Shown here: positions 2,626 to 14,587 of the stretch, one piece after another
How the letters are laid out: each line of letters begins with the position of its first letter
How positions within the stretch are numbered: position 1 is the stretch's first letter
Assembly: GCF_003173735.1 (NCBI RefSeq)
Contig: NZ_CP029551.1
Location: 933,001-997,000, forward strand
DNA from: Methylobacterium radiodurans
GTDB lineage: Bacteria > Pseudomonadota > Alphaproteobacteria > Rhizobiales > Beijerinckiaceae
DNA length: 64,000 nucleotides
Reading direction: 5' to 3'
Made by a program: the position numbers and the translations under genes
The notes under the pieces: model-generated
The model's input: only the letters and a program-made list of their open reading frames with translations
Databases searched by the model: none
Told to the model about the DNA's origin: nothing

Positions 2626-3597
2626 TCAGACCAGCACGATCGCGCGCAGCTTCCGCGCCGGGAAGCGGCGATTCGACCAGTCGTCCGGATCCGGCTGGCC
2701 GCCGGGTGTCACGGTGCCGGCATTGCTGAACATGTTGACGCTGGCGGCCACCAGAGTGATGTCGGCGCGGCCATCCGGAACGCCCGGACCTACGGACCGA
2801 TACGCCTTTTCGAGCGTGATGCCGACATGTCCGGCTTCGGCGTTACGAATGGCGTCGAAGACGGAGGTTGCGTACGCGCGAACGCTCGGCTCCTGTCTGA
2901 ACGCTTCGACGGTCGGGAGATCGGCCGGACGCAGATTGACGAGCGGGCCGCAAATCTTCTCGTCGTGCGGCGGTCCCATGTAACGCAGGTCCGGGATCGC
3001 GAATGGCCTCGGCCAGCGATTCTTCACGAGGATGGCGCCGAGATCGGCGAGAATGAAGCGGTCGCATTCCGCGAGAACGAGCACGGCAGCCGTCTCCCAC
3101 GCCCAGAGAGCTTGCATCAGCAAGCCGGCAAGGTAGGTTTCCGCCCTGCCGTCGTCGTTGTGGAGGTGCCGCAGTGCATGGTAGTGGCCGATCCAGGCCT
3201 CTTTCGTATCGATGGCGTTCAAGACGTCGTTGGATGCCGCTGCCAACCGGCCCAAGACGCAGACCCTGGCAACGTCCAGGGCTTCCTCCGTCACCTGATC
3301 GAAGTGGAAGATGGCCCGCAAGCGCTGCATGAAGGCTTCCGGGTCGGTTACGCGAACCGGAGTTCCGAGCGTACCCTCGTCGCGGACCGGATCGGGAGCG
3401 TAGCGGACGTAGGGTAAGGGCACGATCTCGTCGGATAGAGCAGCCAGGGTGCCGGCCAGCTCGAAGTATCGCGCGTCGGCGGCGCGTCGCTCTTCAACGA
3501 GTTCCAGGTCTACGTTGTCATCGGGCTCCAAGCCCATTGAGATCGCGAACTCGTTCGCGAACACGCGATCCAGCTGGCCGCCGAAAACGATTTTCAT
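2626..3597 (-). CDS. Hypothetical protein, 323 aa, Tn7-island cargo
   Basis: The start is placed at the ATG at 3597 because GAGGAG lies six bases upstream; an open frame extends to 3690, but that extension has shadow-like composition. The protein begins MKIVFGGQLDRVFANEF. It has a largely helical middle (LLMQALWAWETAAVLVLAE) that could be amphipathic rather than membrane-spanning, and ends in a basic tail. I see no known nuclease, ATPase or toxin motif and do not recognise the family. It lies between two other unknown genes on the same strand, all downstream of tniQ. A defence or accessory role would be a guess from location only. Confidence 0.75.
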   Translation of the reverse strand: MKIVFGGQLDRVFANEFAISMGLEPDDNVDLELVEERRAADARYFELAGTLAALSDEIVPLPYVRYAPDPVRDEGTLGTPVRVTDPEAFMQRLRAIFHFDQVTEEALDVARVCVLGRLAAASNDVLNAIDTKEAWIGHYHALRHLHNDDGRAETYLAGLLMQALWAWETAAVLVLAECDRFILADLGAILVKNRWPRPFAIPDLRYMGPPHDEKICGPLVNLRPADLPTVEAFRQEPSVRAYATSVFDAIRNAEAGHVGITLEKAYRSVGPGVPDGRADITLVAASVNMFSNAGTVTPGGQPDPDDWSNRRFPARKLRAIVLV

Positions 3598-3950
3598 AAT
3601 GGACTCCTCGGCGCGATCCGTCATGTTTCGAATACGTGGGTGGGAGGCCGACTCTGCTGCATCCGACCGCCTGAAGAACCGTGCGGTCACTGCAGCGATT
3701 CACACAAGTCTCGCTCGGCACGGACTCGGCTGCGACCGTTCGTTCGTCGCAGCGGCAGGGATGGTCCGACGCGAGCCACGGAAGGCTGCCCGCGACGAAC
3801 GGGGACGGGATCGCCTGTGCCTCGACGCCAGCGTTCGCTCGTCGGCGTGGCTGTCGTCTGGCCAGCGACCTTGCGGACCGGCGCCCGACCGTCCTCCGCG
3901 GGAGAACACCGACGTGACGACGGCCGATGTGGTGCGCGGCTCGGCTCCGG
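3598..3950. other. 353-bp gap, no gene recognised
   Basis: Between the end of the 3951-4493 gene and the start of the 2626-3597 gene. Only Arg/Ser-rich shadow frames are open. The ribosome-binding site of the downstream gene lies at its left end. No terminator-like hairpin with a T-run was seen. Confidence 0.5.
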
Positions 3951-4551: not shown

Positions 4552-6471
4552 TCAACCTTCAATTGCCGTATGCGCTTCTCTGTACCTCCTTCGTTGTTTC
4601 GCGAGGACGGATTTCACCGTGTTCGCGCGATAGATGGCCGCCGCTCCCTCGCCGATCAGCAGGGCCGGCTCGCATCCGGCGGCCTTCAAGCGCTTCTCAA
4701 GGGCGGGCGCGGGCGTGTTTCTCAGGCGACACAGGTTGCGCAGACTGACATACGTTTCGTCGAACGCTTGGAGGGTGTCGTTCCCGACGGTCGTGGTGTG
4801 CCGCCCGTTGACCGGATGGCGCCGCGTTTGCAGCCGCAAGTGGCCGAGATCCGCCAAGCGACGGACGTGTTCGATCGCCACGCCCAGCTCCCGGGCGGCG
4901 TGTCCGACGGGCGTCACGTCGTCGAACCGGCCTCGGAGTAGACGTTCGACCTCCTCGAAGTCGACGAGCAGCGATGCGTAGGTGCGCCGTTCCGTCGCCG
5001 ATCCCACCCAGCCGAGGCGGCCGGACAGGATCAGGCCGACGATCGCGGGCTTTCCGCACCGCAGCCGCAACTGCGCCTCGTGAAGCGATACGACACGCGC
5101 CGAGGCCGGACGTGGATTGGCGGCCGGGGCGTAGAGGCGTTCGAGGAAGGCGTCCACGTCCGCCTTCCGGAAGACGTACATCCCGAGGGGCGCGTCCCGT
5201 TGCCCCCCTCGGCAGATCGCAACCAGGTGGCCGGCCCTCTCCAGGACGGTGACGTCGCGTCGTCCCGCACCGATATGATCGGCCACCGCTCCGAGGGACA
5301 GGCTGGTCTGGATGTCCTGCAGGAGGGTCTTGGCCGCGAGCGCGTCGAAGGTCACCCTGTCGTCGGGTCGGCTTTCGTGGTCCGATGCGATCAGCCCGCG
5401 GAAGGCTAGGATGCGGCGTAGACGGCGCGGTTCGAGATCGTAGGCTAGCGACGCCGCCCGGATGGAGAGGACGCTCCGCTCGGATACCGGTTCGCCGAAG
5501 ACGCCACGTCCCAGACCGAAACCCAGTGTCTGGGTGAAATGGTCGCGAAAGATCTCTCGAATACAGGCATATGTCGGATCCTTCACTTCGAACACGAGCC
5601 ATCGGTAGACCGATCCGTAGGCGCTGTAGCGATTAGTCGAACGACTGTGTCCGTGTGACGCCTGAAGTTTTTCCAGGAACCGATGGATGCCGGTGGGACC
5701 TTCCCGCAGTACGTCGTAGCCGGCGCTCCCCGCGGTATGCCAATCGTCCTCGGAGAGCTGGCGCAGGATCTGCGCTGGGCCGAAGCGCGCCACGCATCCG
5801 AAGATTCGGCACGCCTTCACGGCGGCGTAGTAGGGCAACGTATCGAGCCATAGCTCGCCCGAGGCCCCGTTCTCCAATCGGGTCAGCAAGTAGCGTTCTA
5901 GGCCGGACGGCTCGGCCGATCCTCCGGGTGCGACGGCCTTCGGATCGCCGCCGTGGCGGTTCGTCACGAGATGATGAAAATCGTGGCGCGCGTAGCGATT
6001 GCCGGCCTTGAGCGACTTGTGGTCGATCCGTGCGAGTTCGGCGCGGTGAATCGGACAGGTTCTAATGGCCGAGAGATTCCATGTGGAGCGTCCGTAGGCG
6101 GCGTGTTCCCCGAGTTCCGGCGATGCCCGATGGTCGTCGGCCAGACAGTGCGGGCAGACGCGGATGGCGTTGCGGTGCAGGCAGGTGATCCGCAGTCGCT
6201 CGCCGCGGTAGGATCGCTCCAGCCGGTTGGCACCATCCGAGATCGCCCGGAAGCAGTTGGCTTCGAGGTTCTCCAACGACGCGCCCGTCAAGCGGGCGAG
6301 GCGTTCGAGCGTTTCCGCGTCGCCATGCGCAACCGCTTGGATGTCCATTCCGAGTTCGCGACAGAACTCCCTCATGGAGGGCGCCCGATGGAAGGACGCG
6401 TGCCGGGAGACGTAACTCGTCGGCGTTTCGTCCCGCCCCAAGGGTAGGACAGGCGACAGGAAGGCGGTCAC
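4552..6471 (-). CDS. tniQ: TniQ/TnsD-type target-selection protein of a Tn7-like element
   Basis: A 639-residue protein starting at a GTG (6471) that overlaps the tnsC stop as GTGA. The N-terminal 170 or so residues are TniQ-like: LPLGRDETPTSYVSRHASFH, then zinc-binding Cys/His pairs in RVCPHCLADD and RTCPIHRAEL. The long C-terminal part contains several winged-helix-like stretches (LGAVADHIGAGRRDVTVLE; VGHAARELGVAIEHVRRLAD), as expected of a TnsD-type DNA-recognising protein rather than a short TniQ. In Tn7-like elements this protein binds a target sequence and recruits TnsC. It is last in the tnsABC-tniQ operon. Length suggests recognition of a fixed attachment site, which I cannot identify here. 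Confidence 0.85.
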   Translation of the reverse strand: MTAFLSPVLPLGRDETPTSYVSRHASFHRAPSMREFCRELGMDIQAVAHGDAETLERLARLTGASLENLEANCFRAISDGANRLERSYRGERLRITCLHRNAIRVCPHCLADDHRASPELGEHAAYGRSTWNLSAIRTCPIHRAELARIDHKSLKAGNRYARHDFHHLVTNRHGGDPKAVAPGGSAEPSGLERYLLTRLENGASGELWLDTLPYYAAVKACRIFGCVARFGPAQILRQLSEDDWHTAGSAGYDVLREGPTGIHRFLEKLQASHGHSRSTNRYSAYGSVYRWLVFEVKDPTYACIREIFRDHFTQTLGFGLGRGVFGEPVSERSVLSIRAASLAYDLEPRRLRRILAFRGLIASDHESRPDDRVTFDALAAKTLLQDIQTSLSLGAVADHIGAGRRDVTVLERAGHLVAICRGGQRDAPLGMYVFRKADVDAFLERLYAPAANPRPASARVVSLHEAQLRLRCGKPAIVGLILSGRLGWVGSATERRTYASLLVDFEEVERLLRGRFDDVTPVGHAARELGVAIEHVRRLADLGHLRLQTRRHPVNGRHTTTVGNDTLQAFDETYVSLRNLCRLRNTPAPALEKRLKAAGCEPALLIGEGAAAIYRANTVKSVLAKQRRRYREAHTAIEG

Positions 6472-7547
6472 GGCTTTCCCTTCATGCGGTTGCGGTGAGC
6501 CTTGATGCGCTCGGCCGGGGTCTTGTCCGTGGTCGGGGCAGCGCTCTTCTGTAGGACGCGGGAGCAATCGATCTTCTGCCAAGCGTCGACGGTGAACGGA
6601 TTCGCGGCGGCGCCGCAGGCGGTGCGCTTGTAGTAGGCGGACGCGAAATGCTCGCGGCGGAGATCGTCGGTCTCGGCCTTGAGCGCCTGACCGATCGCTT
6701 CCTGGATCAGCTCGATCGAAGTGCCCATCTGATAGAGGCCGGCATGCAGCAGGCGGGGTACGAGCGGCTTCGCGACCGTGTCCGAGAAGACCACACCCGC
6801 GACGGAAGCGAGGGTCTTGCCCATCTCCCGGATGGCCTCGCCGTCGAGTTCCGGATCCAGGGCGTCGAAGTTCACGGTCAGCGCGCGTCGCCTGTCTTCC
6901 TCCGCCTCCTCTAGGAAGTCGGCCAGAACGGGCAGGCCGGAGACGATCACGACGATCGGCCACGCTTCGTCCGTGACCATCGACTTGAGCGCGTTCTGAA
7001 TGTCCGTGCGGTCGATCTCGTTCGCCTTCAACACGACGTTGTGCATCTCGTCGAGATGGATGGCGAGGAGTCCGCACATCTCGATCCGCTCCTGGACGCG
7101 CTCCCAGACGAGGGTCTTGTCGAGGGCTCCCTTGATCGGATACCCGAGCTTCTGCAGGATCTGCCGTCCGACGCCGGTGAATGTCGTCGGCGCGCGCACC
7201 TTGATCGTGACCAACGGACAATTGGAGCGGGGCCGATCGTAGCCGGGGAAGGCGTCGTGCCTGGCGAACATCCGCTTGAGCGAACGGGTCTTGCCGGCGC
7301 CCGTCTCGCCCAGGACCATGAGGATCTTGGCCTCGGTTCGGTTTCCGGGCCCGAGATCGGCGTCCGGGTCGGCCCGCAGCTCCAGGCTGTCCAAAGCCTC
7401 CTGGAAACTCTCCACCAGCTCGTCGTAGCGATCGGTCTCAAGGAACTTCGCTCTGACGCGCTCCATGATCCGAGCGCGGGCGCGTCGTTTCGCGTCCCCG
7501 CTATTCGCGAGAAGATCGAGTGCCCTGGTCTGGACTTGGCTAAACAT
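6468..7547 (-). CDS. tnsC: TnsC-type AAA+ transposition regulator
   Basis: A 359-residue ATPase. Walker A is GETGAGKT near residue 77 and Walker B is LLAIHLDEMHN near residue 165, followed by a sensor-like VIVVIVSGLPVLADF. In Tn7-like systems TnsC forms ATP-dependent filaments on the target DNA and links the target-selector (TniQ/TnsD) to the TnsAB transposase. The ATG at 7547 shares its A with the stop codon of tnsB (TGATG), and its own stop overlaps the GTG of tniQ, so the four genes are translationally coupled. The basic C-terminal tail fits contacts with partner proteins or DNA. Confidence 0.9.
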   Translation of the reverse strand: MFSQVQTRALDLLANSGDAKRRARARIMERVRAKFLETDRYDELVESFQEALDSLELRADPDADLGPGNRTEAKILMVLGETGAGKTRSLKRMFARHDAFPGYDRPRSNCPLVTIKVRAPTTFTGVGRQILQKLGYPIKGALDKTLVWERVQERIEMCGLLAIHLDEMHNVVLKANEIDRTDIQNALKSMVTDEAWPIVVIVSGLPVLADFLEEAEEDRRRALTVNFDALDPELDGEAIREMGKTLASVAGVVFSDTVAKPLVPRLLHAGLYQMGTSIELIQEAIGQALKAETDDLRREHFASAYYKRTACGAAANPFTVDAWQKIDCSRVLQKSAAPTTDKTPAERIKAHRNRMKGKP

Positions 7548-9742
7548 CAGTCGACGATCCTGTAGCGGCTCGGACTCTTGATCTGCGGAGAAGACTGGCG
7601 GTCGCCGGAAGCCACATCGCCTGTGCCGGTATCCACCGGAACGGCGCCGCTGGCGTCGTTCGTGGTCATGGAACCCCCGGGCGACGTCTCCACCTCTATG
7701 ACGTGGTCGAAATCCCCGTCGCCGGCGAGGTCGATCTCGGTCTCGGGTTCGGTCGGAACGAAGCCGAACGCCAAGCTTCGTTCCAAGCGGGCCAGTTCGA
7801 ACTCGCCGATCGTCTCCGGCGAGATCCCCGCGAACGCCTCGGCGTTCTCGCGGAGGGCCTCGATGGCGCGTCGGGTTTCCCGGACCGCCTTCATTCCGTG
7901 GCGGTTGTCGTCCGCGTGCCGCAGGCGCAATTCGGCGAGCGTCCGCGTCCAGACGCCGATGGACACGTCCGTGAAGTCGTCGTGGATACAGGGAACCGTC
8001 AGAAAGGCGCCACCGACATCGACCGACACGGCGCCGAGATCGAGTTCGTCCACCCGAACCTCAACCTTTCGATCTCCGACTTTCTTGTAATGCGCGTGCA
8101 GCGACGTGGACTGGTAGTACAGTCCGAGCACCCGGACACCCCTATTGCTCAGAACACACCGCATGCGCTTCCCGAAGGCGGCCCGCAGGCTCGGCCGGTC
8201 GGGCGGCTGGACCAGACCGTACTCTCGTACCAGGCGATGCCAGGCATTGCGCGGGCTCTCGCCTCCCAGGCCCTCGTGCGGGAGGTTGTGATAGATGTCG
8301 ACTACGTAGCGGCAAAGGACCCACCTCAACTGATCGACGAAAAGGATCGCCTGCTTCTCTGAGTCGTAGTCACCGCGGCGAACGGTATTCTCGAACGTGC
8401 GCCCGCTGAAACGTGCGATGAGCTGCGTGTGGATCCGTCGAAAGACACGCTCGACGCGGCCCCGCAGGAACGGAACTCCGGATGTCGGGACGTGCTTGGC
8501 TCCCCTCATCGCGGCGATCGCGATTCTGAACTTCGTCCACACGAAGCTCGGTCCGCCGTCGGTGACGACTTCCTCAATGCCACCGAACATGTCCCAGGGG
8601 GTGAGTGCGCCGCACGCGTCGGCGTAGCGCCCCTTGTCGCTGACGACCATGCGGAGCGTCGCCAGCGCGTTCTCGCCCGAGGGCGAGCGCGACAGGGTCA
8701 TACCGACGATGCAGCGGGTCGCCGCGCAGATCGCGACGCAGATCCAGCACTTCGTCCGCTCGACGGCGGCCTTCTGCGACGCGTCGAGGGTTTCCCAGAT
8801 GCCGGCGTCGATCGCCAACACCATAAGGGACACCTCCCATTCGTCCATTTCGATCCGCTGAAGCGGGCGAACCGCGTCGACACCGTGACCGATCAGATTG
8901 AACTTCGCGCGGGCTGCAGCCGGGCTGTGACGGTTCGAATAGACGTCGAAGGCATCCAGTTTACGGATTTGGGCGTTGAACCACTTGTTCGAAGGCGCGA
9001 CGAGTTCTGGCTGGCCCGCCGCAGTACGGCCTGCGTTGACGAGGGCGAGTGCGATTACGAAGTCGTCATAGAGGTCCGCCTTGCTCGGTTTGAGCTGGCT
9101 GGCGAACTTCGTGACGTACTCCAGAGCGAGCGTACGGAGGTCCGGATCGATGACGGGCGCACGTGGACCGCAATTGTCGTAGTATGTTTGCAGGGCTTGG
9201 CTGTCGTAGTCGGCCTCCCTCAGACGCTTGAGCCATTGCCGCAGGCATTTCGGCCCCGGAAGCCCGCGTAGGTCCGTCGCTCCTGAGCGGGACCGCTTCG
9301 GCGTGCCGTCCTTTCTCAGGTTGTGCACGTTCGGCACATGCGTGATTTGGGTCGCGATGACGGACATCGCCTTCCGAATCGACCGGTCCGACCTGCTTGC
9401 CTGGCCGGCCGCTTCCATTTGCAGGAAAAGCGTGCAGACGGCCGCGCGGAAGACGACGATACGCTGTTCCGCCTCGTCGATATGCGCGACGAACGTGGTT
9501 CCCGTGCGCAGCCGGATCTTGATGCGGGCGGGATGGAACCATCCCCGCTCGTGGCGATAGTCGGGCAGCCGGCGACACGTCTCGAACTTGTCGTGAGTGA
9601 ACCCGGTATGGATCGTGGGATCGTCGACGCGCGCGAAAACGATGCCGTTCCGGTCCGAGCTGACGTACCGGAACGCGATGCCCCCAATCGTGTGTTGATC
9701 GAGCGGATCGAACGCGTAGCGTATTGCGAGAGCTGCGCTCAT
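7547..9742 (-). CDS. tnsB: TnsB-type DDE transposase
   Basis: A 731-residue Mu/rve-fold transposase that cuts the 3' ends of the element and joins them to target DNA. The start is ATG 9742, overlapping the tnsA stop (ATGA); the longer open frame upstream is a shadow of tnsA. A helix-turn-helix-like segment (GLPGPKCLRQWLKRLREADY) lies near residue 165. The catalytic triad is readable: Asp in RIEMDEWEVSLMVLAID (about residue 300), Asp in EVVTDGGPSFVW (about 385), and Glu in LRGRVERVFRRIH (about 420). A beta-barrel region follows (YYQSTSLHAHYKK). The last about 60 residues are acidic and Ser/Thr-rich, which fits a TnsC-interacting tail. Confidence 0.9.
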   Translation of the reverse strand: MSAALAIRYAFDPLDQHTIGGIAFRYVSSDRNGIVFARVDDPTIHTGFTHDKFETCRRLPDYRHERGWFHPARIKIRLRTGTTFVAHIDEAEQRIVVFRAAVCTLFLQMEAAGQASRSDRSIRKAMSVIATQITHVPNVHNLRKDGTPKRSRSGATDLRGLPGPKCLRQWLKRLREADYDSQALQTYYDNCGPRAPVIDPDLRTLALEYVTKFASQLKPSKADLYDDFVIALALVNAGRTAAGQPELVAPSNKWFNAQIRKLDAFDVYSNRHSPAAARAKFNLIGHGVDAVRPLQRIEMDEWEVSLMVLAIDAGIWETLDASQKAAVERTKCWICVAICAATRCIVGMTLSRSPSGENALATLRMVVSDKGRYADACGALTPWDMFGGIEEVVTDGGPSFVWTKFRIAIAAMRGAKHVPTSGVPFLRGRVERVFRRIHTQLIARFSGRTFENTVRRGDYDSEKQAILFVDQLRWVLCRYVVDIYHNLPHEGLGGESPRNAWHRLVREYGLVQPPDRPSLRAAFGKRMRCVLSNRGVRVLGLYYQSTSLHAHYKKVGDRKVEVRVDELDLGAVSVDVGGAFLTVPCIHDDFTDVSIGVWTRTLAELRLRHADDNRHGMKAVRETRRAIEALRENAEAFAGISPETIGEFELARLERSLAFGFVPTEPETEIDLAGDGDFDHVIEVETSPGGSMTTNDASGAVPVDTGTGDVASGDRQSSPQIKSPSRYRIVD

Positions 9743-10443
9743 TCCGCCTCCGATGTGGTTTGATGCGCGGCCCTGACGCTCGTTTCGGGGGCAAGACGGG
9801 CCGCCTTGGGTACGACGAGACGTCCTGCGGCAATCAGGCGGATGCCGGCGCGAAAGCCACGCCCGTCGAACCCGGATGTGCACGCGATGTTGCGCAGCGT
9901 CGTCTCGCCATGCAGGTCCGCGACGACCTCCGCGACGGCCGCGTCCGCTTCCGGGTCGACGTCGCGGCGCGCGCTCAGGATCAGCCGGGCGTTGTGAACG
10001 GTGTCGCGTCCCAGGCGCCGTTCGGTCAGCAGAGCGACCCGGTCGGCAACGTCGATACCGCTCGCACCGATCTGCTCCGCGATCGACCGAAGCGTTCGAG
10101 GCAGATCCTGTTCGATGGCGCGCCGCCACGGCTTGACCGCGACGAGAACGCGGGTGCCGTCGCGCAAGGTCTGGAGGAAATCGAACGTGTGCCGTCGTGT
10201 CCGACCATCGGTATCCTCGTACGGGATGGCCGGCGGCTGCTCCCACAGGTCGACGGTTTCGCGCCGAGCCAGCATGACGAACGCGGCCTTGGCCTCAAGA
10301 TGGCTCTCGAGATGGAACTCGCGCTCCGGAGATCCGGCGACGATCGTCACGCGCGACCCGCCGCGCGACGGTTTCGTCACGATGCGGCTGGCTCGGCTCC
10401 TCTCGGGCGGGTACCAGAGATGGTCTGCCGGCATCGTGTCCAT
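9739..10443 (-). CDS. tnsA: TnsA-type endonuclease
   Basis: Start at ATG 10443 (234 aa), preceded by GGAAGGG; the open frame further upstream to 10809 has shadow composition. TnsA nicks the 5' ends of Tn7-like elements so that they move by cut-and-paste. The restriction-enzyme-like core is visible: Glu in EFHLESHLEAKAAFVMLA, Asp in RRHTFDFLQTL, and Lys in RVLVAVKPWRRA. In canonical TnsA an acidic or Gln residue precedes the Lys by two; here that position is Ala, so activity should be judged from a family alignment. A C-terminal helical domain (VALLTERRLGRDTVHNARLI and onwards) would contact TnsC. First gene of the operon, with coupled translation to tnsB. Confidence 0.85.
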   Translation of the reverse strand: MDTMPADHLWYPPERSRASRIVTKPSRGGSRVTIVAGSPEREFHLESHLEAKAAFVMLARRETVDLWEQPPAIPYEDTDGRTRRHTFDFLQTLRDGTRVLVAVKPWRRAIEQDLPRTLRSIAEQIGASGIDVADRVALLTERRLGRDTVHNARLILSARRDVDPEADAAVAEVVADLHGETTLRNIACTSGFDGRGFRAGIRLIAAGRLVVPKAARLAPETSVRAAHQTTSEAE

Positions 10444-10860
10444 GGAGACCCTTCCATCAGTTGGAAGGCGGCAGTCGCTCTCCACCGCCCGAGAAGGCAC
10501 GGTCGATGCGGTGCACGCCAGGTGCATGCGAGTGGTCACGATCGGTGGCACGCGCGGTCCTGGTCCGCCGCGACGAGCCGAAGCCATCGCGCCGGTACGG
10601 ATCCGGTACGAACCTGCATCCACTGCGTGGGCGCCCGACGCATCGCTTGCCCAGGGGCGACGCCCCGCTCGGGGAGCGCCGCCGACGCCGCGGGGCGTTC
10701 CGGGGCGTCGGTCCACGATTCCCCGAGGAGGGAAGCTGCCGCTACGGTTCTTCGGAGATCCTTCGAAGGACTCCTGTCCGGTCGTCACCGTGATGCGGCC
10801 ATCGGCCATGGTAGCGAGCGTGGGGGCGCTCGCATCTCCGGAGCGGTAGGCCAGCGGTTC
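10444..10860. other. 417-bp leader region upstream of tnsA
   Basis: No convincing gene. Contains the hairpin at 10450-10468, a TGCAC/GTGCA stem near 10510-10526, and a cluster of GC-rich self-complementary words with repeated GGGGCG and CGCCCC around 10670-10710. It may hold the tnsABC-tniQ promoter, but no clear -35/-10 pair stands out. Confidence 0.45.
10450..10468 (-). promoter_or_regulatory. Hairpin covering the tnsA ribosome-binding site
   Basis: On the minus strand CCTTCCA pairs with TGGAAGG across a five-base loop. The second arm contains the GGAAGG that would be the tnsA Shine-Dalgarno, so in the RNA this stem would hide the site. Such a structure could keep TnsA, and through coupling the whole operon, at a low level. 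The pairing is seen; the role is inference. Confidence 0.5.
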
Positions 10861-11385
10861 CTATCGAGTGCGACCTTCGCGAACCCAGCGCCCCAGGGTC
10901 GCCGGACTCGGCCTCGCTCGACGCACCGAAACGACCTCGACCCGCATAGCGGCGGCGCGACAGGACAGTGATCGATCGGTGCTCGACGAACGAGCGTCCT
11001 GTTGATGGTCCGGATCGTCGACGAGGCTCCGGATCAGCGGGGTGAGGACTTTGATTGCGCGGCCGAAGCCCACCACCGTCGGCGGGTACGTGGCGAGATC
11101 CCGAGTGGAGAGATAACGGTACCCGTTGCACCAAATGGCGCGCCAACACCTGGCCGCAGTCTGCTCGTCCAAATGGTTGACGTCGCCTCCCGACGGGTCG
11201 TTGGCCGCATCGACGCCGACGGGAAGGCCTGCCGGAGCCGGAAGTACGACAGGAGTGGGGCGATCGCCGGAAGCGTTCACGTCGGATGCCTCGGCGTAGG
11301 ATCGCCTAGTAGCCGACATGAGATCGTTGTGGTGGCGAGACGCGTCGAAGTTCTCCGATACCTGAAGTGCGCGATTGGTTGTCAT
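10861..11385 (-). CDS. Small putative DNA-binding protein, paralog A
   Basis: Start taken at ATG 11385 (174 aa, MTTNRALQVSENFDASRHHN). The N-terminal half is low-complexity and Pro/Ala-rich. The C-terminal half matches the protein at 12273-12851: WRAIWCNGYRYLSTRDLATY here against WRRLWLNGYAHLRDRDPVFY there, then AIKVLTPLIRSLVDD against AIAVLAPLMRRIEAD, and the terminal PSPATLGRWVREGRTR against PSAVTLLRWHDAEAKTR. The last segment looks like the recognition part of a helix-turn-helix, similar in style to PGPKCLRQWLKR in TnsB. I do not know a named family. Its place upstream of tnsA on the same strand suggests an accessory or regulatory role in transposition. Confidence 0.65.
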   Translation of the reverse strand: MTTNRALQVSENFDASRHHNDLMSATRRSYAEASDVNASGDRPTPVVLPAPAGLPVGVDAANDPSGGDVNHLDEQTAARCWRAIWCNGYRYLSTRDLATYPPTVVGFGRAIKVLTPLIRSLVDDPDHQQDARSSSTDRSLSCRAAAMRVEVVSVRRARPSPATLGRWVREGRTR

Positions 11386-11471
11386 AGGGATGCATCCTGC
11401 AGTCGGGGAAGCTACGGCACCGCGATCAGCCTTGAGGACGATCGCGATACTGATGTCTGCTGGATGCTGGC

Positions 11472-11496
11472 CCCCTGATTCATTATGACTCAGGGG
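11472..11496. repeat. 25-bp near-perfect palindrome
   Basis: Outer arms CCCCTGA and TCAGGGG are exact complements, and the inner TCAT/ATGA also pair, leaving only two mismatched pairs and the centre base. It lies 87 bases upstream of the ATG of paralog A, where an operator would be expected. Confidence 0.7.
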
Positions 11497-11558
11497 CGTC
11501 GGCGCTGAAGCCTCTTGTATCGCTGCGATAGGCATGCGATCTCCAAGGCCGTACCGAG

Positions 11559-11578
11559 CCGTCGTGAATTCACGACGG
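11559..11578. repeat. 20-bp perfect palindrome
   Basis: The sequence CCGTCGTGAATTCACGACGG is identical to its reverse complement over all 20 bases. A perfect palindrome without a loop is more typical of a dimeric protein-binding site than of an RNA hairpin. Confidence 0.75.
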
Positions 11579-12272
11579 AGTGGTGCAGCATCTCAGCCTG
11601 TTGCAAAGGGATGGCCGACAGTTCGTGCTTCGACGTCGGCGAGAGAAAGCGTCACCGGGGGCGTCCGAGTGCTAGTCGGACGTCACCCGGTGATCGCACC
11701 GGTCATGAATCCTTCATTGTCGATCTCCTGTCCTGCTCACGGTGCGGGAGGCACCGGCTATGCCCGGAAGATCCGGAACAGTGTCACACGTCGGATCGCC
11801 GGTGACATGCTCGTGTATGTTCGTCGTGATCTGTGTGCGTCAAGTCCGGATCTCGACCCAAAACCTTCGGTAAGCTTGGTTTTCCGCGATCCTTCGGACA
11901 TGGATGCTGCAAGTTCGGAACGACAGGCTCATCTGAAACTTGCTTACGCCGGTCTTGCGTCAGCTTGGGGTGTGGCGGAGAGTTAGGCCTACAGTCCTAT
12001 AATTGACTGTCGCGATCGAATGCGTGGGTCTCTCCCACCGCAAGTGGTCCGCTTACGGTAAAGGCTTCTGCGCATTGGTGAAAAGATAGGCCTATGGGTT
12101 CACCGACGACTGTGTCCGACGGTTCATGGGATTGAACCATCGCACGATGCCTGAAGCATCGTCACAGATCCGATCAAGAGGATACGAGATCAGCATCTCG
12201 GGCGTCGCAGCGCGTCCGAGCTCGCGTGATCACGAGTTTCGGACAACGAGTCGCATAGATTTTATATCCTAT

Positions 12273-12851
12273 TTAGGAACATAAAGATTGCAGTCGGTTC
12301 GGGTTCGTCCAGGCGGTTTGGGAGGCCCGAGTTCTGGTCTTGGCTTCGGCATCATGCCACCGCAGGAGTGTCACGGCCGATGGGGCACTGCGGACCCATA
12401 CCAGCGGGCGTGATGGAGGGCCGCTGGCTACACCCGACTTAAGGAAATCCGCCTCGATGCGTCGCATCAGAGGAGCCAGAACGGCGATTGCACACGCCGC
12501 GCCCTCGGGCGTGACGGCATAGAAGACCGGATCCCGGTCGCGGAGATGGGCGTAGCCGTTCAACCACAAGCGCCGCCAGGCTTCAGGCGTCAGAGTCCTT
12601 TGGGCCTGCGCCGCTCGGACGCCGACGATCTTCGGCCACACGGCATCGAAGACCTCCGGTCGAAAAACCCGAGGGTCGATGGAGCACGTGTCCTCGCGAT
12701 CGGGGCCGTCGCCCTCGGATGGCCACGCCAATCTCGCCTGGGACCGGTCAGCCGTCGAGCTTCGAGTATCACCCCCACGTGAGACGGCTCCGCCGGGGAG
12801 TGCGGGTGAGCGGACCGCGCGTGGCTCCGGGATATCGTAGTCATACGGCAT
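12273..12851 (-). CDS. Small putative DNA-binding protein, paralog B
   Basis: ATG at 12851 with AGGAA upstream gives 192 residues (MPYDYDIPEPRAVRSPALPG at the start). As in paralog A the N-terminus is Pro/Ser-rich and the C-terminal about 100 residues hold the shared pattern: WRRLWLNGYAHLRDRDPVFY, AIAVLAPLMRRIEADF, then a variable Pro-rich linker and a terminal helix-turn-helix-like APSAVTLLRWHDAEAKT. An extra preceding segment, RVFRPEVFDAVWPKIVGVRA, is present here. Same strand and order as paralog A, so the pair looks like a tandem duplication that then diverged. Function unknown; a DNA-binding accessory to the Tn7-like element is the simplest inference. Confidence 0.65.
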   Translation of the reverse strand: MPYDYDIPEPRAVRSPALPGGAVSRGGDTRSSTADRSQARLAWPSEGDGPDREDTCSIDPRVFRPEVFDAVWPKIVGVRAAQAQRTLTPEAWRRLWLNGYAHLRDRDPVFYAVTPEGAACAIAVLAPLMRRIEADFLKSGVASGPPSRPLVWVRSAPSAVTLLRWHDAEAKTRTRASQTAWTNPNRLQSLCS

Positions 12852-13067: not shown

Positions 13068-13304
13068 TTAGAGGAACACGAGCGGGATGGCGGCGATCAG
13101 TCCGGTGACGAGGGCGAAGCCGAGGAGTATCAGCCACAAGCCCATGCGCGCGTTCCAGACGCGGAGCTCGTCTCGAACCGCGTCGATCGACTCGGCATTG
13201 AGATCGTAAACCAGCTGGGCGACGGCATCCGCCTGCTTGAGGGGAAGGCCAGACTGCACCAAGGTACGGAGCGCGTCGCGCTTCTGCGTGATCGTTTCCC
13301 GCAT
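13068..13304 (-). CDS. Small single-span membrane protein
   Basis: A 78-residue protein from ATG 13304; a TTG at 13313 overlapping the stop of the upstream exonuclease gene is also possible. The N-terminal 50 residues are charged and helical (MRETITQKRDALRTLVQSG; AESIDAVRDELRVWNARM), likely a coiled coil. The C-terminal 22 residues are one hydrophobic segment (LWLILLGFALVTGLIAAIP), so it should be a tail-anchored inner-membrane protein. Its start overlaps or abuts the stop of the DnaQ-like gene, which points to co-translation. I do not recognise the family. Confidence 0.6.
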   Translation of the reverse strand: MRETITQKRDALRTLVQSGLPLKQADAVAQLVYDLNAESIDAVRDELRVWNARMGLWLILLGFALVTGLIAAIPLVFL

Positions 13305-13309
13305 CGCCG

Positions 13310-14206
13310 TCAAATCCGGGTCGAGTAGCGGTCGTAGGCGCCGATCTCCGTGATCGGCACGTCAACGTCGGCTTCGTATATCTCGCGTCGGAGATACTGA
13401 ATCTCCAGTGCGACCAGTTCCTCCGTGACTTCACGGTACCAAGCTGTCGGCCGACCGGGCTTCGCGATCTCGTTCCAACGATAACCGCGCGCGCGCAGCG
13501 AACGTATCCGGCCGAGCGGGCACCGCACCGCCCATACTTGATAGGTCGGCGCTTCGGCGGCGACGACGAGCCTCGCGAACGCGGTCGTCTCCGAGTTCGG
13601 CAGACGCTGCGCCAGAACCTCGATCGCGGCCGCGCAATCCTCCTGCGCACGGTTGAGCGAAGTAAAATAGCCGAGTTCCGCTAGCAGACGACCGAGCTTC
13701 GCTCCCCCGAAGCCCGCCTCCCGCCACGGGATCTGCGTGAGCGAGCATGCCCATCTCTTCCGTGCGAAGGCGGGTGTGATCTGCTCGGCGAACGGTCGAT
13801 CGTGCTGGCCGTCGTGACTGCAGATCCAATCGACGTCGGCGAGCATCCGCTCGATCTCCGCGATGTCGAGCAGGCAGCCATCGACCATTCGTTGCGTGAT
13901 ACCCGTGAGCTTGGTCACCTCGGCCGAGATCGGCATGAAGGGCTGCTGGAACGAACTGTAAGGTTCCTGGACGTCGAGGATCCGTCCGTCGGCCGAGTAC
14001 GTGAACGGGACCAGGGCGATCTCGATCAGTTCGTGCATTCCGGGGTCACGTCCCGTAGTTTCCAAGCCGAGGAAGATGCCGCGCCCCGCGACGGGTGGGA
14101 GGGCATCATCATGGGGATCGCGTCGCCTCAGACGACGCAGGACGCGGTAATGGCCCGACTGCTCCAGCAGGCAGGCGATGCGATCGAGAGGGAGGTCATT
14201 CGACAT
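13310..14206 (-). CDS. DnaQ-like 3'-5' exonuclease family protein, catalytic residues altered
   Basis: Start at ATG 14206 (298 aa, MSNDLPLDRIACLLEQSGHY); the longer open frame upstream is not protein-like. The fold is that of the epsilon/DnaQ DEDDh exonucleases: GIFLGLETTGRDP near residue 48, TKLTGITQRMVDG, WICSHDGQHDRPFAEQI, and LNRAQEDCAAAIEVLAQ. The first catalytic position (normally D-x-E in FLDLETTG) is Gly, and the His of the last motif (normally HRAxxD) is Asn, while the Asp residues of motifs II and III remain. This suggests a weak or inactive nuclease. The C-terminal part is a separate domain (RSLRARGYRWNEIAKPGRP). Divergent from the XRE gene. Confidence 0.8.
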   Translation of the reverse strand: MSNDLPLDRIACLLEQSGHYRVLRRLRRRDPHDDALPPVAGRGIFLGLETTGRDPGMHELIEIALVPFTYSADGRILDVQEPYSSFQQPFMPISAEVTKLTGITQRMVDGCLLDIAEIERMLADVDWICSHDGQHDRPFAEQITPAFARKRWACSLTQIPWREAGFGGAKLGRLLAELGYFTSLNRAQEDCAAAIEVLAQRLPNSETTAFARLVVAAEAPTYQVWAVRCPLGRIRSLRARGYRWNEIAKPGRPTAWYREVTEELVALEIQYLRREIYEADVDVPITEIGAYDRYSTRI

Positions 14207-14281
14207 GGTTCGGCGCCACCGTTGGTTGCGACAAAACCAACATAGGTCGTTTTTCTGAAATCGCACATTTTGGGTGGTTTT

Positions 14282-14587
14282 GTGGTTAACAAATCGTTGG
14301 GATGTATTGATTTGTCGAATATAGAACCCGTGCAAGCCAGAGCAGCGCGCGCCATGCTCGCTTGGTCGCAGGATGAATTGGCGGATCGCGTCGGTGTGCT
14401 GCGGCGTGTCATTTCGGATTTCGAAAAAGGCAAAAGCCTTCCACATCAGGAAACCATGGATAGTATGTATAGAGTTTTTGTCGAGGCTGGCGTATCGTTC
14501 ACGAGATCATCTGGAATGCTTGGCGTAAACATTACAGAAACGGCGAATTTCACGAATTGGCTGCATTCGATCTCTCCGAGAAAATGA
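14282..14587 (+). CDS. XRE-family helix-turn-helix regulator
   Basis: A small regulator of about 100 residues. The exact start is uncertain: GTG 14282 is used, TTG 14270 and later TTG/GTG codons are possible, and no clear ribosome-binding site decides. The Cro/CI-type helix-turn-helix is at ARAARAMLAWSQDELADRVG followed by VLRRVISDFEKGKSLPHQ, and the C-terminus continues MDSMYRVFVEAGVSF. Divergent from the DnaQ-like gene with a short gap. The inverted pair ACAAAACCA (14231-14239) and TGGTTTTGT (14275-14283) lies in that gap and could be its operator. DNA here is noticeably richer in A+T than its surroundings, which fits acquired DNA. Confidence 0.7.
   Translation: MVNKSLGCIDLSNIEPVQARAARAMLAWSQDELADRVGVLRRVISDFEKGKSLPHQETMDSMYRVFVEAGVSFTRSSGMLGVNITETANFTNWLHSISPRK

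Follow-up and report, generated by a model that had tools for sequence, protein, structure and literature searches.

A probable family of solo TnsB-type end-binding domains encoded beside tnsA in two Tn7-like elements

The stretch considered here (the window: 64,000 nucleotides of Methylobacterium radiodurans, positions 933,001 to 997,000 of contig NZ_CP029551.1) has, on the minus strand of its left part, a set of Tn7-like genes, comprising an exonuclease gene, a gene for a protein of 81 amino acids (aa), two genes here called A and B, and then tnsA (9739-10443, its start placed by homology), tnsB (7547-9742), tnsC (6468-7547) and tniQ (4552-6471). Gene A (12273-12851, minus strand) encodes 192 aa. 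Gene B (10861-11535, minus strand), a diverged paralogue of A, has two in-frame ATGs, giving 224 aa from 11535 or 174 aa from 11385, the latter being the start given in an initial annotation of this DNA. That annotation had reported two open reading frames (ORFs) upstream of tnsA and in the same direction, and both are present.

The initial annotation had also proposed that the two proteins share a C-terminal region, as indeed they do: 20/44 residues are identical (45%; pairwise blastp E 8e-9), the Smith-Waterman score is 102 as against a best of 68 from 2000 shuffles of B, and the optimal alignment spans the conserved blocks from WR..W.NGY through PS..TL.RW. At the DNA level A and B gave no significant match (best blastn E 0.57), and searches of the organism's own genome returned just these two copies. 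No family was matched by either protein in Pfam, PHROGs or NCBIfam (E up to 1) or in PADLOC (E up to 0.1), and the PDB gave no credible sequence match. The Pfam search thus gave neither a DDE catalytic domain nor the Ner-like HTH_35 family (PF13693), and no Xre, MerR or Arc regulator family was found in Pfam, PHROGs or NCBIfam at the same threshold. A kinship with target selectors, raised earlier as one option, found no support, the TniQ profile failing to match (hhalign probability 0.3 and 0.1) and Pfam giving nothing.

A third member of the family came to light through the exonuclease. When this was used as query against 59 genomes of the genus, its closest relative, at 66% identity (the next ones being at 43-44%), was in genome G996, and there, at locus L172, a 204-aa ORF, C (9298-9912, minus strand), lies between the exonuclease gene and tnsA. 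A and C are 41% identical over residues 61-189, the similarity starting upstream of the TnsB-like domain discussed below, and the conserved blocks of A and B recur in C; the TnsB of the element carrying C is just 33% identical to that of the window. Over 111 aligned codons (44% protein identity), A and C agree at 0.52, 0.68 and 0.37 of first, second and third positions (0.29 being expected from composition at the third), with dS 1.92, dN 0.56 and hence dN/dS of about 0.3, and the frames are intact in both elements. The corresponding values are dS 1.42 and dN 0.84 for A and B, and dS 1.19 and dN 0.62 for C and B. Such a pattern is the mark of selection on the protein, clearest for A and C; since synonymous sites are near saturation while the protein is conserved, all three look like real genes. 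The similarity between A and C far exceeds that of either to any TnsB seen.

For comparison with the transposition proteins, TnsB loci were gathered from 80 of 185 relatives in the genome collection, from 6 of 3445 plasmid records and from 20 of 21 non-own places in the family. A profile of A and B, compared with a profile of 82 TnsB sequences (that of the window excluded), matched TnsB columns 108-186 with a score of 38.5 (P 4.5e-5), and A alone (28.8) and B alone (29.0) matched the same region. The highest score from 300 column shuffles was 23.1, and the reversed profile scored 15.1; addition of C gave a score of 38.9 (at most 26.8 in 300 shuffles). When the A+B profile was compared with 151 families of ORFs taken from these loci, the best score was 25.9. 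One of these families was a mixed cluster holding some TnsB (14 of its 60 members were used), so its score of 7.8 tests nothing. Profiles of TniQ, TnsA, the exonuclease and the Ner-like proteins introduced below scored from 11.1 to 16.1, and that of TnsC scored 29.0 with A+B and 19.8 with A+B+C. In the reverse direction, a model of A, B and C reached at least 6 bits on 24/107 TnsB ORFs and on 0/379 other ORFs 500 aa or longer, a difference whose significance is no true probability, the TnsB ORFs being mutually related. Medians were 2.8 and -4.2, respectively (matchless ORFs being set to -5), and all 24 matches fell within about TnsB columns 102-207. The loci omitted from this reverse test (L001-L004, L091-L134, L156-L171 and L179-L181) were own copies, weak hits and short repeats of other loci.

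The matching part of A (residues 87-168; 12348-12593, minus strand) has three predicted helices, which agree with those of TnsB (helices 90-111, 119-132 and 164-176) in the corresponding part of the window's tnsB (residues 95-176; 9215-9460, minus strand). The equivalent domain of B occupies residues 126-220 of the 224-aa form (10876-11160, minus strand). The profile comparison and predicted helices support the proposal, made in the initial annotation, that the last conserved segment corresponds to a TnsB-type recognition helix. A structure search with a model of A gave other helix-turn-helix folds at low Z; TnsB and MuA were not listed, though the search does not exclude them. A, B and C thus quite probably belong with the TnsB end-binding domains, an assignment with fairly good support overall, each single part of which is weak. 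As an observation in its own right, tnsB itself seems to be divided at two loci (L146:7062-7796, by ORF match, and L006:11974-14127, by annotation) between one ORF for the N-terminal DNA-binding part and another for the catalytic part, either through a frameshift or as a true two-gene form.

The family is rare. With A alone as query, 1/297 genomes of the order gave a match, namely the organism's own; with A and B, matches came from 2/385 genomes of the class (the own genome and one match with internal stops) and, at E up to 0.1, from 20/199 genomes of the family, the non-own ones being weak, many with internal stops, and those inspected resembling anti-sense or composition matches. With C added, the genus yielded 2/111 (the own genome and G996) and the family 2/397 (the own genome and G1101, discarded because the match near the place reported amounts to only 13 residues). 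Three scans of viral contigs found no family match, and neither plasmids (queries A, B and C) nor phages (query A only) gave anything significant. Motifs of A and B were absent from ORFs of at least 50 aa in stretches of up to 6 kb preceding tnsA at 105 related loci (a further one of the 106, L087, has no tnsA match); the full 6 kb was searched at 81 of these, at least 1.5 kb at 97 and fewer than 500 bases at 4, and the sole pattern match, at L080, was unrelated. Profile scans of the collected loci gave no copy besides C. Of the tblastn matches to B, that at L011 is an unrelated gene and that at L009 falls in the tnsB region and is weak (E 0.006). The initial annotation had proposed looking for homologues beside tnsA in other Tn7-like elements: one credible homologue, C, does adjoin tnsA, and it is the sole one found, which speaks against homologues lying mainly away from Tn7-like genes; the 105 related loci supplied none, from which it follows that A, B and C are no general Tn7 accessory. 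These ORFs, homologous to one another and conserved at protein level, neighbour tnsA in both of two diverged elements; they probably constitute a small, rare family of solo TnsB end-binding domains.

Other elements have a different small gene in a comparable place. A Ner-like ORF lies on the tnsA strand, a median of 216 bp upstream of tnsA, in 34/105 related loci (for example L037:6868-7101, L088:7013-7240 and L065:2586-2831), and HTH_35 was well above cut-off in the three tested. Some elements are repeated among the loci (L079 and L152 are 100% identical, and L173 probably duplicates L041), so 34/105, like 24/107 above, counts loci and not independent events. Taken with the A/B/C family, the Ner-like genes suggest that small DNA-binding genes turn up repeatedly upstream of tnsA, the protein differing from case to case, as if a regulator slot were filled by different proteins in different elements.

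What might such proteins do? A transposition regulator or an end-binding cofactor, as first suggested, is possible and is the best reading. We favour, tentatively and at something near even strength, the first of these, in which A, B and C would be free-standing proteins related to the first helix-turn-helix portion of the region with which TnsB binds ends, the three-helix DNA-gripping domain having been kept and the catalytic domain and remainder of TnsB being absent. These catalytically empty proteins would bind TnsB-type sites just upstream of tnsA, the proposed site of action in the window being the intergenic stretch between B and tnsA (10444-10860, minus strand), and once bound would reduce transposition, either through repression of the tnsABC promoter or because they compete with TnsB for the transposon end, or in both ways. 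Obstruction of transcription or of TnsB is what would be expected of a domain of the TnsB kind that lacks catalysis and is encoded beside tnsA. The motif TYCGGAGATSC, picked after the fact from the copies themselves, has only three exact matches in the window (10325-10335, 10751-10761 and 10832-10842), all in a 520-base stretch around the start of tnsA. Repeat searches found no convincing transposon-end binding sites, a search for terminal repeats with the left flank and a comparison of near-identical elements gave breakpoints without a clear common terminal sequence, and a promoter scan found no sigma-70 site.

Several observations weaken the link to TnsB. The absolute hhalign probability of the A+B profile with TnsB is only about 69%; each single match between the A+B+C model and TnsB is around 10 bits or less; a profile of 6 TnsB sequences finds the RW helix only (probability 0.8); and C by itself aligns only with the later part of the TnsB-like region and, at the RW helix, matches an excisionase-like family (Exc) below the threshold. 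Codon usage, which speaks against the reality of the ORFs, is untypical for this region: A, B and C have a GC fraction of 0.57-0.60 at codon position 2 (0.43-0.53 in the neighbours compared, namely tnsA, tnsB, tnsC, tniQ and the exonuclease gene) and of 0.66-0.71 at position 3 (neighbours 0.77-0.85), while the codon log-odds are about 0 for A and B and 0.3-0.5 for tnsA, the exonuclease gene and the 81-aa gene.

The same TnsB-domain evidence would also suit a positive role: A and B might join TnsB on the transposon end, help to build the transpososome and give the element an end specificity of its own. Two diverged copies could then serve two kinds of site, and the occurrence of the family in two elements whose TnsB proteins differ greatly would fit. 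Such a cofactor nevertheless seems unlikely, since no member of the family was found upstream of tnsA at the 105 related loci, even beside the TnsB proteins closest to that of the window (L011, 48%; L005, 46%), so the machinery in general does not need them.

Could A, B and C belong instead to the exonuclease module? The exonuclease, of the DEDDh 3'-5' type (13310-14206, minus strand; 66% identical, as noted, to that adjoining C), is divergent from a gene for an XRE-type regulator (14270-14587, plus strand) whose relatives occur near the exonuclease in related elements, and its stop is overlapped by the 81-aa gene (13068-13313, minus strand). At L005, L007, L011, L041 and L058, inspection by eye shows a comparable small ORF after the exonuclease (tblastn was significant for L007 only). 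Several Methylobacterium-type elements have the divergent XRE/exonuclease pair upstream of tnsA (13310-14587 in the window; L005, L011, L041, L058, L153, L172, L173 and L174), and L175-L178 have exonuclease homologues without tns matches within the stretch fetched. Among the nine loci where the exonuclease had a match, only L088 also has a Ner-like gene, and its exonuclease is about 4.8 kb upstream. The window and L172 share 66% identity in the exonuclease and 41% in A/C, with just 38% in TnsA, 33% in TnsB and 32% in TnsC; towards L011 and L005 the pattern is reversed (exonuclease 43-44%, TnsA 53-55%, TnsB 46-48%, TnsC 42-44%), and there A is missing. These pairwise identities are most simply read as an exchange of exonuclease and tns sides between elements. 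Because of this mosaic, and with an A-family gene near the exonuclease in both elements, A may belong with the cassette, as a regulator or partner of an XRE-exonuclease pair riding in Tn7-like elements. We consider this improbable in view of the resemblance of the domain to TnsB and of the failure to find a recognisable copy at the exonuclease loci L005, L007, L011, L041, L058, L153 and L173-L178. On the other flank of the gene set, downstream of tniQ, are two ORFs without any family match (1455-2519 and 2626-3600).

Least probable of all is that A, B and C are decaying remnants of a duplicated TnsB gene with no present role, as their codon statistics and faint TnsB similarity might suggest, given the intact frames in both elements, the low dN/dS of A and C and their much closer resemblance to each other than to any TnsB seen. 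If the favoured explanation, that of TnsB-type antagonists, is extended to embrace the mosaic structure, the transposase's own end-binding domain would have given rise to separate, duplicated antagonist genes, travelling with an exonuclease cassette swapped between elements with distantly related TnsABC proteins; this fuller history is conceivable, and on balance doubtful.

The end-binding domains of MuA are named I-beta and I-gamma. With these and with the corresponding domains of Tn7 TnsB (PDB 7pik for TnsB; PDB 4fcy for MuA), A, B and C share the order of three helices, as predicted, and the P...TL.RW segment; unlike TnsB and MuA, they have the first such domain only and no catalytic part. 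The Ner-like HTH_35 proteins are, like A, B and C, small, with a DNA-binding fold, and encoded on the same strand just upstream of tnsA, but there is no profile similarity between the two groups (hhalign probability 0.2 and 0.5), and at the 105 related loci Ner-like genes occur in 34 and the A/B/C family in none. Another parallel is InsA of IS1, which carries the end-binding part. InsA has been described as a separate first-ORF product that lowers transposase expression (PMC8944449). It overlaps the transposase reading frame, unlike A and B, which are diverged genes in their own right within a Tn7-like element. A limited literature search, passages of Benler et al., 2021 (PMC8649781) included, found no solo TnsB-type binder described. 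Self-regulation of Tn7-like elements has been described, in passages of two reports, for CAST types, which have recruited general repressor families: V-K elements encode CvkR (MerR type) and Arc-type regulators of the transposition genes (PMC9938897), and I-F3 elements encode the Xre-type regulators RtaC and RtbC (PMC11406308). These are element-encoded, as A, B and C are, but belong to general regulator families, with no transposase origin stated in those passages (PMC9938897, PMC11406308). A solo TnsB-type end-binder, if such it proves to be, might offer a natural off-switch for Tn7-like tools, and would represent a solution different from the recruitment of general repressors.
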